Origin: a virus
Virus record (IMG/VR): IMGVR_UViG_3300009159_000246
Location: 1-28,001 of that record
Direction: 5' to 3' (one strand)
DNA length: 28,001 bases
Shown: positions 22,086 through 27,568 of the stretch, piece after piece
How positions within the stretch are numbered: position 1 is the stretch's first letter
Layout: every line of letters starts with the position of its first letter
Notes under the pieces: model-generated
The model's database searches: none
Seen by the model: only the letters and a program-made list of their open reading frames with translations
Told to the model about the DNA's origin: nothing
Translations under genes and position numbers: made by a program

Positions 22086-23723
22086 TTATCGTCCTGGTGG
22101 TCTTGGATTTGGTGGCTTGTTGCCATTTTGGTCACCATTGTCAGCTCTAGGCTTTAGCAACTCACTAAGGCTCTGACGACTTGGAATATTGCCCAAGTCT
22201 GTTGTTGACACAGTGTATGTATTGTTAACAAAGCCCGAGCGTAAAGTTTGATTCATCGGACCATTGGTTAGATTTGTTCTAACATTGTCTTCTATCTTGA
22301 CCCAGGTTGCACCATTGAAACGGAACAATCTATTGGGGAAATAATCTAGTCGCAAACAATATGCACCGGATTGCGGATTAGGTGGGAAGCTTACGCCGGG
22401 AGTTACAGGCAACCCATTGGGTGCAATTCCGTCACCGGTCAAGTAGCCCATGGTATAACCATCGGCTCTAGGAGTTACAGCAGCCTCATCTGCTTGAATG
22501 TAACTAGAGTCCACAGTAATAGTAGTAGTCTCAGTAACTGGCTGAACAGTGGATACAGTATAAGAAATTGTATCTGAGTCACCTAACATTTGCATATTCC
22601 AATTGCTACCATCATATCGATACAGTCGACTAGGGAAGAAGTCCAACCGCAATGCATAATCGTTCACTGCTGGGTCAGCTGGAAACGCTATACCAATGGT
22701 GGCATTTACGGGGGTCTGACCAGTACGATTAACTTCGCCAGTGGTGTATTGAACTGGTGTAGTGATAGTAGTTGTTGCAGGAAACTCGTTGGTAGAACCG
22801 TCGGCAGTGACCCCTGCAGGATCAGCTGGTGAACCATCTTCATTGGTGGGGAATATGTAAAATTTTACAGTATCGTAGCCAGATAAAGGAACTTCAAGTT
22901 CGGCTTGTGCCAACAATGCATCATTAATTTCGAGATCTTTAGGTCTAGTACTTGCCACATCAGCCTCTGTTGGTGGATCAATTGGTTCCCAGTAATCGGT
23001 GTCTGTGATTTCTGTTCCTACTGGTGTATCTATTTTGGCTCTAAAATACTTGTCGCCATAATTTACAATACTGCCTGCTGGGTAAAAATTACCTGGATCC
23101 CAAATTTGTTCTGATATAAATGGTTTGTTGATAATTTCTTGGTATTCTTGTGCGTTGACCATGGGGGTGGCCTTGACTCGCCACAAGTGTGGCATCCAAG
23201 TTTGAGAGAAGCCTTCGCTGGCAAAATTAGCGTCTTGTATAACATAGTATCTAGGAAGTGCTCGGGGTATAGCAGGATCCAACGGATTCATATCACGCAA
23301 ATTGGGCACTTCTAAAACATCACCACTCATGAGCTTGCGCCCAAATGTGTCAATCATGTCGTTGTAATGAAAGGTAATGAACAATGTGTCATTGTTTAAA
23401 AACAATCCAAATTGTGTAAGATCAAAATCAATGTCTTGTGATCGATACACACCGCGCATTTGATACACGTCTGGATCATAGGCTCTATCTCGATTTTCCA
23501 ACAGCAACAAGTCTTGTATAAACAACGGATCTTCTGTTGGGTATTGCGGTTGTGTGACATCATAGTTGCCGCTCTCAAGCGAGTCCTCACCAGCAGTTTT
23601 TGGTCCCAGGTATTTGTGTACGTAGAGATCCAGCCCGCCTACGGTGTACATTTCCGAGATGGTTTTATCAAAAAATTTGTAATCATTCGTCCTATTAGGA
23701 CGCCACATACTGAGTCTTGGCAT
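22086..23723 (-). CDS. 14: Neck protein, T4 gp14-like
   Basis: 545 residues. Residues 1-190 (YKFFDKTISE, YVHKYLG, LENRDRAYD, QDIDFDLTQFGLFLNNDT, MSGDVLEVP, HLWRVK) fit the gp14 family, which with gp13 forms the neck that completes the head and joins it to the tail; assignment is by pattern and by the adjacent gp15-like gene. Beyond residue 200 it is larger than T4 gp14 (~256 residues). Residues 208-248 (WDPGNFYPAGSIVNYGDKYF ending DYWEP) resemble a small carbohydrate-binding module of the CBM5/12 type. Two copies of a short module (LRLDFFPSRLYRYDGSNW and LRLDYFPNRLFRFNGATW) lie ~96 residues apart. The C-terminus is Pro/Asn-rich. A TATAAATA late promoter motif ends 7 bases before the ATG, and no Shine-Dalgarno is visible. 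Confidence 0.75.
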   Translation of the reverse strand: MPRLSMWRPNRTNDYKFFDKTISEMYTVGGLDLYVHKYLGPKTAGEDSLESGNYDVTQPQYPTEDPLFIQDLLLLENRDRAYDPDVYQMRGVYRSQDIDFDLTQFGLFLNNDTLFITFHYNDMIDTFGRKLMSGDVLEVPNLRDMNPLDPAIPRALPRYYVIQDANFASEGFSQTWMPHLWRVKATPMVNAQEYQEIINKPFISEQIWDPGNFYPAGSIVNYGDKYFRAKIDTPVGTEITDTDYWEPIDPPTEADVASTRPKDLEINDALLAQAELEVPLSGYDTVKFYIFPTNEDGSPADPAGVTADGSTNEFPATTTITTPVQYTTGEVNRTGQTPVNATIGIAFPADPAVNDYALRLDFFPSRLYRYDGSNWNMQMLGDSDTISYTVSTVQPVTETTTITVDSSYIQADEAAVTPRADGYTMGYLTGDGIAPNGLPVTPGVSFPPNPQSGAYCLRLDYFPNRLFRFNGATWVKIEDNVRTNLTNGPMNQTLRSGFVNNTYTVSTTDLGNIPSRQSLSELLKPRADNGDQNGNKPPNPRPPGR

Positions 23724-24060: not shown

Positions 24061-24070
24061 AAACAACACC

Positions 24071-24108
24071 TATAGCAGTGATTGACAGCAAAATCAATCA
24101 CTGCTATA
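24071..24108. repeat. Perfect 15-bp inverted repeat over early promoter
   Basis: TATAGCAGTGATTGA (24071-24085) and its exact reverse complement (24094-24108), separated by 8 bases. The left arm covers the start of the -35 and the right arm most of the -10 of the 379-residue gene's promoter. It also lies 10 bases after the stop of the 85-residue gene. It could be an operator, or an RNA stem ending the upstream transcript, though no T-run follows. Confidence 0.85.
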
Positions 24109-24110
24109 AT
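24082..24110 (+). promoter_or_regulatory. Consensus sigma70-type early promoter for 379-residue gene
   Basis: TTGACA at 24082-24087, 17-base spacer, TATAAT at 24105-24110, with TGC just before the -10 (extended -10). Both hexamers match the bacterial consensus exactly. It lies within a 15-bp inverted repeat. Confidence 0.8.
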
Positions 24111-24139: not shown

Positions 24140-25279
24140 ATGATAGTAGCAACAAAATCTATAAAACTTTTGAACCCCAGAAGTAGTGATACCAACGTCA
24201 TGGGGCCAGAGCCCACTTGGAAAGTCCAACCAACTGAACACCGCATCAGCGCCTTGAGCAAGGCGTTTGGCTGGTACAATTATTTTTACGGCAAGAAAGA
24301 TGCCCGTGACATGATTGTTAACTATTTGGAATTGCATGGACGTAAAAATGATGTACGTCTTTTACGTGGAGTCCCGGATTCAGCAATTCGATTGACCACT
24401 GGTTGGCTGTGCCGCATGAGCATGGTGGGACTAGAACTCACGGACCATGAACAGATCAAGCTAGATAACTTGCTCCGAGAACTTTTGGAAACAAAACAAG
24501 TTGAGGTAGCAGAAGAAGTTGTGGTTGAAGATGCTACACCACGAATCACTATCCAAGATCGGTTGCGTGAAAAAGTAAGCGAGTGTGCTGGCGAGCTCGA
24601 GGGCTTGTTTGATGACTTTATTGCAAGTGGCGCCAAGCTTAATGCAGACTACAAACCCGTGGTACTCATGCGTAGCCTAAACATTGCCCCACAGATGGTC
24701 AATGACATTAAACAAATTTGGATCCGTAAACAAGCCGAGTTTGATGAAGCAGTGGCAGGTAAAGACGCCGACTTGGTGCAAGGATACGGCTATCTTTCCA
24801 AAGTACAATTAAAGAATTGCGTGAAGTTCTGTGAGCTTGTGATTTCAGACTGTGGTGCCTATGTGCAGATTAAAAAGGTTGAGCGTAAGCCACGCAAAGT
24901 CCGGGCAGTGCCACCCGAGAAACGTGCCGCAAAGTTCAAGCACATTGTAGAATTTGCTGAACTCAAGCTTAAAGGATTGCCTGCCGCAAGCTTGGTGGAC
25001 AAGGCAGAAGCTTGGTTATATGATACCAAGAAACGCAAGTTGATTCACCTTGTAGCCGACAGCCATACTCAGGCATTTACTGTAAAGTCCAACTCAATTA
25101 TTGGGTTTAGTACAGTAGAAAGCCAGCAAAAAACTCTACGCAAGCCAGCAGATGTTCTCAAAGCCCTGGGTGCCGCAGGCAAGCCGGCCGCTAGAAAGAT
25201 CTACAAGGACTTGACTACCACAGAAACACCGTTTAACGGGCGTGGCACAGAGAACTTGATCATTCTAAAGAGTTGGTAA
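24140..25279 (+). CDS. Conserved-looking phage protein of unknown function
   Basis: 379 residues, family not recognised. The N-terminal third contains HRISALSKAFGWYNYFYGKK and RLTTGWLCRMSMVGLEL; the middle (residues ~120-230) looks helical and acidic; after residue ~245 it is basic (RKPRKVRAVPPEKRAAKFKH), then SLVDKAEAWLYDTKKRKLIH, which could be a nucleic-acid or protein contact surface, and the end contains GRGTENLIILKSW. No catalytic motif is evident. AGGAG lies 5 bases before the ATG and a perfect-consensus promoter (TTGACA-17-TATAAT) lies 30 bases upstream, so it is probably early. It is followed directly by the gp13-like late gene, whose late promoter motif overlaps its stop codon. Role unknown; binding of nucleic acid is only a guess from the basic stretch. 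Confidence 0.85.
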   Translation: MIVATKSIKLLNPRSSDTNVMGPEPTWKVQPTEHRISALSKAFGWYNYFYGKKDARDMIVNYLELHGRKNDVRLLRGVPDSAIRLTTGWLCRMSMVGLELTDHEQIKLDNLLRELLETKQVEVAEEVVVEDATPRITIQDRLREKVSECAGELEGLFDDFIASGAKLNADYKPVVLMRSLNIAPQMVNDIKQIWIRKQAEFDEAVAGKDADLVQGYGYLSKVQLKNCVKFCELVISDCGAYVQIKKVERKPRKVRAVPPEKRAAKFKHIVEFAELKLKGLPAASLVDKAEAWLYDTKKRKLIHLVADSHTQAFTVKSNSIIGFSTVESQQKTLRKPADVLKALGAAGKPAARKIYKDLTTTETPFNGRGTENLIILKSW

Positions 25280-25282
25280 ATA
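25275..25282 (+). promoter_or_regulatory. Putative late promoter of gp13-like gene, GGTAAATA
   Basis: GGTAAATA overlaps the stop codon of the 379-residue gene and directly abuts the hairpin at 25283-25302. Transcription starting ~5-7 bases downstream would begin inside the hairpin's left arm and still include the AGGAG Shine-Dalgarno. Confidence 0.55.
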
Positions 25283-25302
25283 TTAGGGACAGGAGTCCCT
25301 AA
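25283..25302 (+). promoter_or_regulatory. 13: RNA hairpin enclosing gp13 Shine-Dalgarno
   Basis: TTAGGGAC (25283-25290), loop AGGA (25291-25294), GTCCCTAA (25295-25302): a perfect 8-bp stem. The AGGAG Shine-Dalgarno occupies the loop plus one stem base, and the A of the ATG closes the stem. In a read-through transcript it should hinder ribosome binding; a late transcript starting inside the left arm could not form it. Confidence 0.6.
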
Positions 25303-26063
25303 TGGCTGACGAAACACTAGACCCGCTTAAAAAACAACTGATAGAATACGTACAACTCCAACTTGGTGATCAAATTATTGACATTGAGTTGGACCCTTCT
25401 CACTACGAAGCCGCATACCAGCGCACTCTAGGCGTGTATCGTCAACGAGCTCAAAATGCATATGAAGAGAGCTACAGTTTTATGCAATTAGAGAACAATG
25501 TCAACGTGTACACCTTGCCTCAAGAAGTTGTTAGTGTTAGGCAAATCTTTCGTAAAACAATTGGTGTAACTGGGTCAGGTGGCTACAGTTTTGACCCATT
25601 TGGTGCCGCTACCCTTAATGTGTACTTGTTAAACATGAACCAGGCCATGGGCGGCCTAGCCACATACGATTTCTATCAACAGTATGTTGAACTAGCGGCA
25701 CGTATGTTTGGCGGCTATATCAATTATACCTGGAATCCTGTTACCAAAAAACTACAACTAATACGTGACCCTAGAGGAAACGGAGAAGTGGTATTGCTTT
25801 GGACATATAATCTACGCCCAGAAATAACTTTGCTAAGTGATTATCAAATCAGCCAGTGGTTCCGTGACCACATGGTAGGCGCTTCTAAATACATCATTGG
25901 TGAAGCACGTGAAAAGTTTGGAACCATTGCTGGCCCACAAGGTGGCGGCACTCTAAATGGTGCACAAATGAAAACAGAAGGCCAAGCCATGATGGACAAG
26001 TGCATAGAAGATCTCAAACTCTATGTAGATGGATCTCAACCACTTACCTTTGTAATCGGCTAA
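25302..26063 (+). CDS. 13: Neck protein, T4 gp13-like
   Basis: 253 residues. The pattern LIEYVQLQLGDQIIDIELDP near the N-terminus, YTLPQEVVSVRQI, LATYDFYQQYVELAARMFGG and the C-terminal HMVGASKYIIGEAREKF followed by GTLNGAQMKTEG fits the gp13 neck family of T4-like phages, which seals filled heads and accepts the tail together with gp14. The family in T4 is about 310 residues, so this is somewhat short. Its partners gp14 and gp15 lie 1.5 kb away on the opposite strand, unlike T4 where 13-14-15 are collinear. AGGAG lies 6 bases before the ATG, within a hairpin that could control translation; a GGTAAATA late motif ends 19 bases before the ATG. Confidence 0.8.
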   Translation: MADETLDPLKKQLIEYVQLQLGDQIIDIELDPSHYEAAYQRTLGVYRQRAQNAYEESYSFMQLENNVNVYTLPQEVVSVRQIFRKTIGVTGSGGYSFDPFGAATLNVYLLNMNQAMGGLATYDFYQQYVELAARMFGGYINYTWNPVTKKLQLIRDPRGNGEVVLLWTYNLRPEITLLSDYQISQWFRDHMVGASKYIIGEAREKFGTIAGPQGGGTLNGAQMKTEGQAMMDKCIEDLKLYVDGSQPLTFVIG

Positions 26064-26632: not shown

Positions 26633-27276
26633 TTGTGGGTGTGTGTGGATTTATTGGATCAGGCAAAGATACAGTAGCGGACTACTTGATGAACGTGCAT
26701 GAGTTCAGGCGTGATAGTTTTGCTAGTACTCTTAAAGATGCTGTGAGTTTGGTATTTGGGTGGGACCGTACCTTGATTGAAGGGCGTACCAAACAAAGCC
26801 GTGAGTGGCGTGAGCAAGTAGATGAATGGTGGGCAAAACGCCTAAACATGCCTCATTTGACTCCACGTTGGATCTTGCAATACTGGGGCACCGATATTTT
26901 GCGTAACTATTTTCATGATGATCTTTGGATAGCCAGCTTGGAAAACAAACTGCGCAACAGTCAAGACAATGTGGTAATAAGCGACTGCCGATTCCCTAAC
27001 GAAATACGTGGTATTCAACAAAGCGGCGGGTATGTAATTAGAGTTTCTAGGGGTGAAGAGCCTTGGTGGTACGAGTTTGCTGTAAAAGCAAATGCAGGCA
27101 ATCTAGATGCACAAGCAGTGCTAGAATCCCACAATGTACATGCTAGTGAAACATCATGGGTGGGCACTGAGTTTGATCATGTGCTAGACAATAACGGAAC
27201 CCTTGAAGACTTGTTTACACAGATCAATGATCTGGTTCAAGATCTCCACGGCGCCAAGGCAGGTCTAGTTTTGTAA
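26629..27276 (+). CDS. 1: Deoxynucleoside monophosphate kinase, T4 gp1-like
   Basis: 215 residues from the ATG at 26629, which overlaps the exonuclease stop (ATGA) and has AAGGA 6 bases upstream; an in-frame ATG at 26590 would give 13 extra residues before the P-loop and is less likely. P-loop G7-x4-G12-K13 (CGFIGSGKDT), followed by ADYL as in T4 gp1. TPRWILQYWGTDILRN and the C-terminal NNGTLEDLFTQI also match T4 gp1 segments. The enzyme phosphorylates dNMPs, in T4 including hydroxymethyl-dCMP, to dNDPs for phage DNA synthesis. With the exonuclease upstream it would turn degraded host DNA into precursors. The last 53 bases overlap the convergent HNH gene; a plus-strand terminator lies ~107 bases after the stop. 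Confidence 0.92.
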   Translation: MIVGVCGFIGSGKDTVADYLMNVHEFRRDSFASTLKDAVSLVFGWDRTLIEGRTKQSREWREQVDEWWAKRLNMPHLTPRWILQYWGTDILRNYFHDDLWIASLENKLRNSQDNVVISDCRFPNEIRGIQQSGGYVIRVSRGEEPWWYEFAVKANAGNLDAQAVLESHNVHASETSWVGTEFDHVLDNNGTLEDLFTQINDLVQDLHGAKAGLVL

Positions 27277-27568
27277 CTTCTTGAACGCAATTCAAACACA
27301 CTGTTTTGAGATTGCGTAATTCACAATTGTTGAGATTACCATCAACATGATACACTGACAATTGCCCAGTATACCTGGCCTTAAACCCGCAACGATCACA
27401 TGCGGGTTTTTTCTTATACCCTGCCATATGCCATCGTGGTGAAACTGGTTTGAGTTTGCGTCCTTTGCGTATGCAAGCATCGCACTTGGATCTATAGTAT
27501 GTTCGATCATACTTGTGATAGGCTATGGCTCGAGGTCGGGCATTGCAAACAGTACATAAGGGTCTCAT
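27224..27568 (-). CDS. HNH-type zinc-binding protein, putative endonuclease
   Basis: 114 residues from the ATG at 27568; an in-frame ATG at 27583 would add MINNT but lies upstream of the late promoter motif. Four Cys pairs: C5/C8, C29/C32, C57/C60 and C91/C94, plus YHVDGNLNN at residues 73-81 and NLKTVCLNC at 86-94, which is the HNH-nuclease signature (H74, N80/N81, and the C91-x2-C94 zinc site). Small HNH proteins are common in T4-like phages as free-standing homing endonucleases or packaging-linked nicking enzymes; which this is cannot be told. A GATAAATA motif ends 5 bases before the ATG without Shine-Dalgarno. It lies antisense between dNMP kinase and sheath genes and overlaps the former by 53 bases. 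Confidence 0.75.
   Translation of the reverse strand: MRPLCTVCNARPRAIAYHKYDRTYYRSKCDACIRKGRKLKPVSPRWHMAGYKKKPACDRCGFKARYTGQLSVYHVDGNLNNCELRNLKTVCLNCVQEVTKLDLPWRRGDLEPDH
27383..27412 (+). terminator. Intrinsic terminator after dNMP kinase, inside antisense HNH gene
   Basis: AAACCCGCA (27383-27391), 9-base loop, TGCGGGTTT (27401-27409) and a T6 run at 27407-27412. It is oriented for the plus strand, 107 bases after the dNMP kinase stop and before the sheath promoter. It overlaps the HNH codons around the KKPACDRCGF zinc site, so chance cannot be fully excluded. Confidence 0.65.

Follow-up and report, generated by a model that had tools for sequence, protein, structure and literature searches.

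In bacteriophage T4, the ribosome binding site (RBS) of genes e, soc and 49 is sequestered on a long early RNA, and a gene-adjacent late promoter gives rise to an RNA without the 5′ arm of the hairpin (PMC3014915). A late promoter combined with an RBS-sequestering hairpin is also found inside early or middle transcription units at the homing endonuclease genes I-TevI, I-TevII, I-TevIII, segB and Aeh1 mobE (PMC2988022). For CBB and GAP32, which belong to the same broad jumbo group as the phage studied here, the description, as far as it is drawn on here, gives a late motif ATAAATA together with a gp55-like sigma, the T4-like late box lying 5′ of structural genes; it covers the promoter motif without an RBS hairpin (PMC5259590).

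The 28,001-nucleotide viral sequence that was analysed (the window) carries both elements in front of a virion structural gene. This gene (25302-26063, + strand) encodes a 253-aa gp13-like neck protein matching the head-tail adaptor family Ad2 (phrog_211, E 7e-27), whose cultured relatives are the jumbo myoviruses Atu_ph07, XaC1, RaK2, 121Q and PA5oct. No DNA-level match was found by blastn of the region against cultured phages, and a viral-contig scan with the 121Q gp13 returned 121Q itself as the sole match. We consider it very probable that the hairpin and late box of gp13 form a timing switch of the T4 gene e type, as the sequence-only reading had suggested; that reading now gains support from covariation, from relatives in which the left arm comes first and from a conserved upstream early promoter. 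Like gene e, the window combines an RBS sequestered on the predicted long RNA with a late promoter adjoining the gene; it differs in that the left arm of e precedes the late box and the box lies in the loop, whereas here the box core comes first, the stem is 3′ of it and late transcription is predicted to begin within the arm, and in that the target is a neck gene of a jumbo myovirus instead of a lysozyme (PMC3014915). The evidence supports a mechanism identical to the one described for e, soc, 49 and the I-Tev genes of T4; new are the gene on which it acts, the lineage, the placement of the hairpin after the box and how widely the arrangement is conserved. A literature search found neither a jumbo-phage version of this switch nor leaderless late genes in T4-like phages, which does not prove their absence.

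The late-promoter box GGTAAATA occupies 25275-25282 (+), with the core TAAATA at 25277-25282, and its TAA is the stop codon of a co-directional 379-aa ORF (24140-25279, +). It is followed by the left arm of the hairpin, TTAGGGAC (25283-25290, +), identified by fold and covariation, by the Shine-Dalgarno (SD) sequence AGGAG (25291-25295, +) and by the right arm GTCCCTAA (25295-25302, +), which runs into the A of the ATG (25302-25304). Box, stem, SD and ATG were all re-located where the sequence-only reading had placed them; AGGA (25291-25294) is the loop and the last G pairs within the right arm. The 8-bp stem is present but was understated in that reading, because folding in context predicts ten pairs that include the whole AUG and the last two box bases, U25303 and G25304 pairing with the box end. 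The isolated hairpin has a predicted energy of -11.5 kcal/mol (z -3.98), and none of 200 shuffles was as good. In a shuffled 28-kb window, 0.06 perfect 8-bp stems with an SD core inside a loop of 3-8 nt are expected, and the box plus SD hairpin before gp13 is far above chance. In RNA starting upstream, the SD, the AUG or both are paired in the predicted folds.

Such RNA would come from the 379-aa gene (phrog_11903), whose predicted early sigma70 promoter (24082-24110, +) is a consensus TTGACA-17-TATAAT with TG (12/12 match); no terminator-like site on the + strand was found in the window sequence before gp13, in agreement with what had been noticed at the outset and as a switch of the gene e type would need. 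Among 51 distinct regions of relatives, 32 keep a promoter matching at least 10 of 12 positions (random 150-mers, 4.6%), always with a 17-nt spacer and at -51 to -62, and no TAAATA occurs in the last 60 nt of the distinct upstream regions of these relatives. A 17-pair inverted repeat (24070-24109) overlaps the -35 element of this promoter and is terminator-like on the - strand. Further upstream lies a virion structural gene (phrog_11591; 22086-23723, -). In Atu_ph07 and Phosso the phrog_11591 gene adjoins gp13 directly, in antisense orientation, so the early cassette sits inside what is elsewhere a divergent pair; this is an unrooted comparison with regard to the direction of change between the hairpin and antisense arrangements. 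The rest of the window includes several very long genes with GNITGG/NVSGQVANA repeats (61-20220), which are probably tail fibres or structural adhesins.

The box GGTAAATA differs at two positions from the T4 late box TATAAATA. The window shows no excess of near-matches to TATAAATA (29, with 38 expected), and the motif was therefore dropped as stand-alone proof. Its status as a late box is supported because TAAATA is invariant in 30 of 30 aligned leaders and because a gp55-type sigma (phrog_234) is found in relatives, namely G001 (a genome of the window's own clade), G002, G003, 121Q, RaK2, XaC1, PA5oct and Atu_ph07. The gp45 sliding clamp profile PF02916 matched T4 alone among the phages searched, in a search that could overlook a diverged clamp.

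The position of the late start can be predicted from spacing. In distant relatives with an antisense neighbour, gp13 looks leaderless and is arranged as TAAATA-N5-ATG, which would put the transcription start about 6 nt past the box; this corresponds to 25288 in the window (range 25287-25289, +), inside the left arm. In G001, 25 genes have the ATG at offsets of 4-7 nt from the box, with about 0.66 expected per offset. Such leaderless candidates are in strong excess in the window's clade and not to that degree in 121Q, RaK2, XaC1 and T4; in the window itself the ORFs at 22086-23723 (-) and 27224-27568 (-) are candidates. Judging by motif and spacing, the late RNA from the adjacent promoter would lack most of the 5′ arm. 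The mean predicted cost of opening the RBS in 63 hairpin leaders falls from 15.9 kcal/mol on the long RNA to 4.1 kcal/mol with an RNA start at nt 5 and 3.4 kcal/mol at nt 6. The exact start matters, since five base pairs of the window's stem are predicted to survive a start at 25286.

We propose that early RNA from the promoter at 24082-24110 would read through the 379-aa gene into gp13 and fold the hairpin, so that the SD and AUG would be locked and little gp13 would be made. At the late stage, RNA polymerase carrying the gp55-type sigma of the phage would use GGTAAATA and start at about 25288 within the left arm, and the resulting short RNA, with a leader of about 14 nt, could not form the stem and would be translated. 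On this model gp13 is probably made only late, and exact late start sites are predicted.

Comparison of the relatives supplied the compensatory changes that the earlier reading had named as a check, covariation exceeding that of shuffled leaders in three leader groups, which are composed of mutually related leaders whose counts are not independent events. In the AAGGA-loop type, in which the left arm follows the box (16 distinct leaders), covariation was 0.323, compared with 0.094 after shuffling and no more than 0.048 when the register was slid, and four of seven pairs had changed on both sides; in the window type (8 distinct leaders) it was 0.357 against 0.156, with 0.250 in the +1 slid register. 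Both types peak in the true register. For the 121Q/RaK2/XaC1 type, where the end of the left arm falls within the box (12 leaders), the values were 0.223 and 0.117. Pairing is kept by compensatory change across relatives, as a switch of the gene e type requires.

The geometry itself varies. The stem follows the box core in the window, and the left arm lies 5′ of the box or overlaps it in ten leaders (L025, L030, L031, L032, L034, L045, L294, L299, L300 and L311) as well as in 121Q, RaK2 and XaC1. An arm so placed cannot be part of the late RNA, and these relatives are hard to explain except by a hairpin confined to read-through RNA. A small intervening gene is present in L025, L031, L032, L034 and L045, where the left arm is 5′ of the box and the RBS is still sequestered; in L025 and L031 it separates gp13 from the 379-aa homologue, the after-box arm has decayed and a before-box arm pairs with the same RBS. 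The T4 trick is conserved and often re-invented across the giant relatives of this phage. A device known from a handful of T4 genes thus appears to be conserved, and repeatedly re-made, at a structural gene throughout a widespread group of jumbo phages, and more than 60 leaders with two geometries, together with hairpin-free relatives, offer a natural series for testing how phages exclude late proteins from early infection.

A hairpin, called where the early value exceeds the late one by at least 5 kcal/mol, is present in 67 of 144 distinct gp13 leaders, 64 of which lie behind a co-directional ORF by automatic call. For two of the remaining three (L013 and L045) the antisense call came from shadow ORFs and a co-directional gene in fact lies upstream, and L027 has no readable context; all hairpin leaders with readable context follow a co-directional gene. 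An antisense neighbour is found with 12 leaders that have an SD without a hairpin and with 31 leaderless ones. This is an association and not a set of many independent trials, because it is mostly whole clades that differ in this respect. Uncompensated loss of pairing, which the sequence-only reading had named as evidence against its proposal, does occur, but in a small minority: six co-directional relatives have an SD and no strong hairpin (L007, L029, L042, L056, L067 and L320), and three others have a weak one (L035, L283 and L291). In three of the six, a Radical SAM gene lies between the 379-aa homologue and gp13 (L042, 1238-2233; L067, 1032-1895; L007, 599-1486), beginning 4-6 nt after the old late box. 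The hairpin is lost in L029 with the 379-aa gene directly upstream, and this may be a recombinant or a chimeric contig.

The main rival explanation is translational coupling, in which ribosomes that terminate at 25279, at the end of the 379-aa gene, open the left arm on the long RNA, and gp13 is made in step with that gene instead of being silent early; we regard it as unlikely. In the window 3 nt separate the upstream stop from the left arm, and in many relatives the two are no more than about 3-9 nt apart; the footprint of a terminating ribosome would reach into the arm and could open it. Unlike in classic coupling hairpins, however, the left arm does not reach into the upstream ORF in almost any relative (L030 being an exception), other hairpinned late genes have a distant upstream stop (392 nt at G001 253237 and 227 nt at T4 I-TevII), and coupling leaves a late start at or after the left arm unexplained. 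If the late RNA instead began 5′ of the left arm, a hairpin at its 5′ end could stabilise it or present the SD, which does sit in the loop, and five or more pairs would survive if transcription began no later than 25286; we hold this to be very improbable, because the leaderless relatives point to a start about 6 nt past the box and the left-arm-first relatives have an arm that precedes or overlaps the box and is absent from the late RNA.

Still less credible is a DNA palindrome or RNA-processing site unrelated to translational control, such as a protein operator or RegB-like cleavage at the loop GGAG. Inverted-repeat covariation can also arise from DNA dyads, and 40 of 63 hairpin leaders do contain GGAG; the other 23 lack it, the arm sequences vary with no fixed motif besides SD and box, and the arm position switches around the box. 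T4 RegB had no credible match in the relatives searched.

Pairing at late boxes was also assessed genome-wide, by swapping pre-start segments among the late-box genes of the same genome, with genes called by a simple script and not a trained gene finder. The first metric covered opening of the SD core only and underrates hairpins with the SD in the loop, so an SD-to-AUG metric was added and both are reported. By the latter, opening exceeded the permuted value in G001 (3.98 against 2.44, p below 0.0002), XaC1 (4.55 against 2.06), PA5oct (2.94 against 1.61), 121Q (2.43 against 1.36), RaK2 (2.36 against 1.38) and T4 (4.60 against 2.80, p 0.0056), and more weakly in G003 (3.72 against 2.29, p 0.017). 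Enrichment was not significant in G002 and G004, and G005 showed none in the first metric (n 7-11 in these three genomes). Controls without a box were not enriched, except in PA5oct (p 0.04). T4 served as positive control: its top matches include gene e (66502-66997), which ranks first, and intron endonuclease loci, I-TevII being identified from annotation; the loci we take to be e and I-TevI are both among them. We advance only tentatively, as a possibility somewhat short of even, that a genome-wide design operates in these jumbo phages, whereby late genes would stay silent on early read-through RNA in either of two interchangeable ways, through RBS hairpins that the late start truncates or through leaderless genes without an internal ribosome site, the hairpin geometry being swapped upon insertion of a neighbouring gene.

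A gene of 181-187 aa in 121Q (35077), RaK2 (139478) and XaC1 (270508), the genomes of leaders L114, L117 and L113, has a CTCCAAG/CTTGGAG pairing that sequesters the RBS around the late box, and is probably a second target shared by these three phages.
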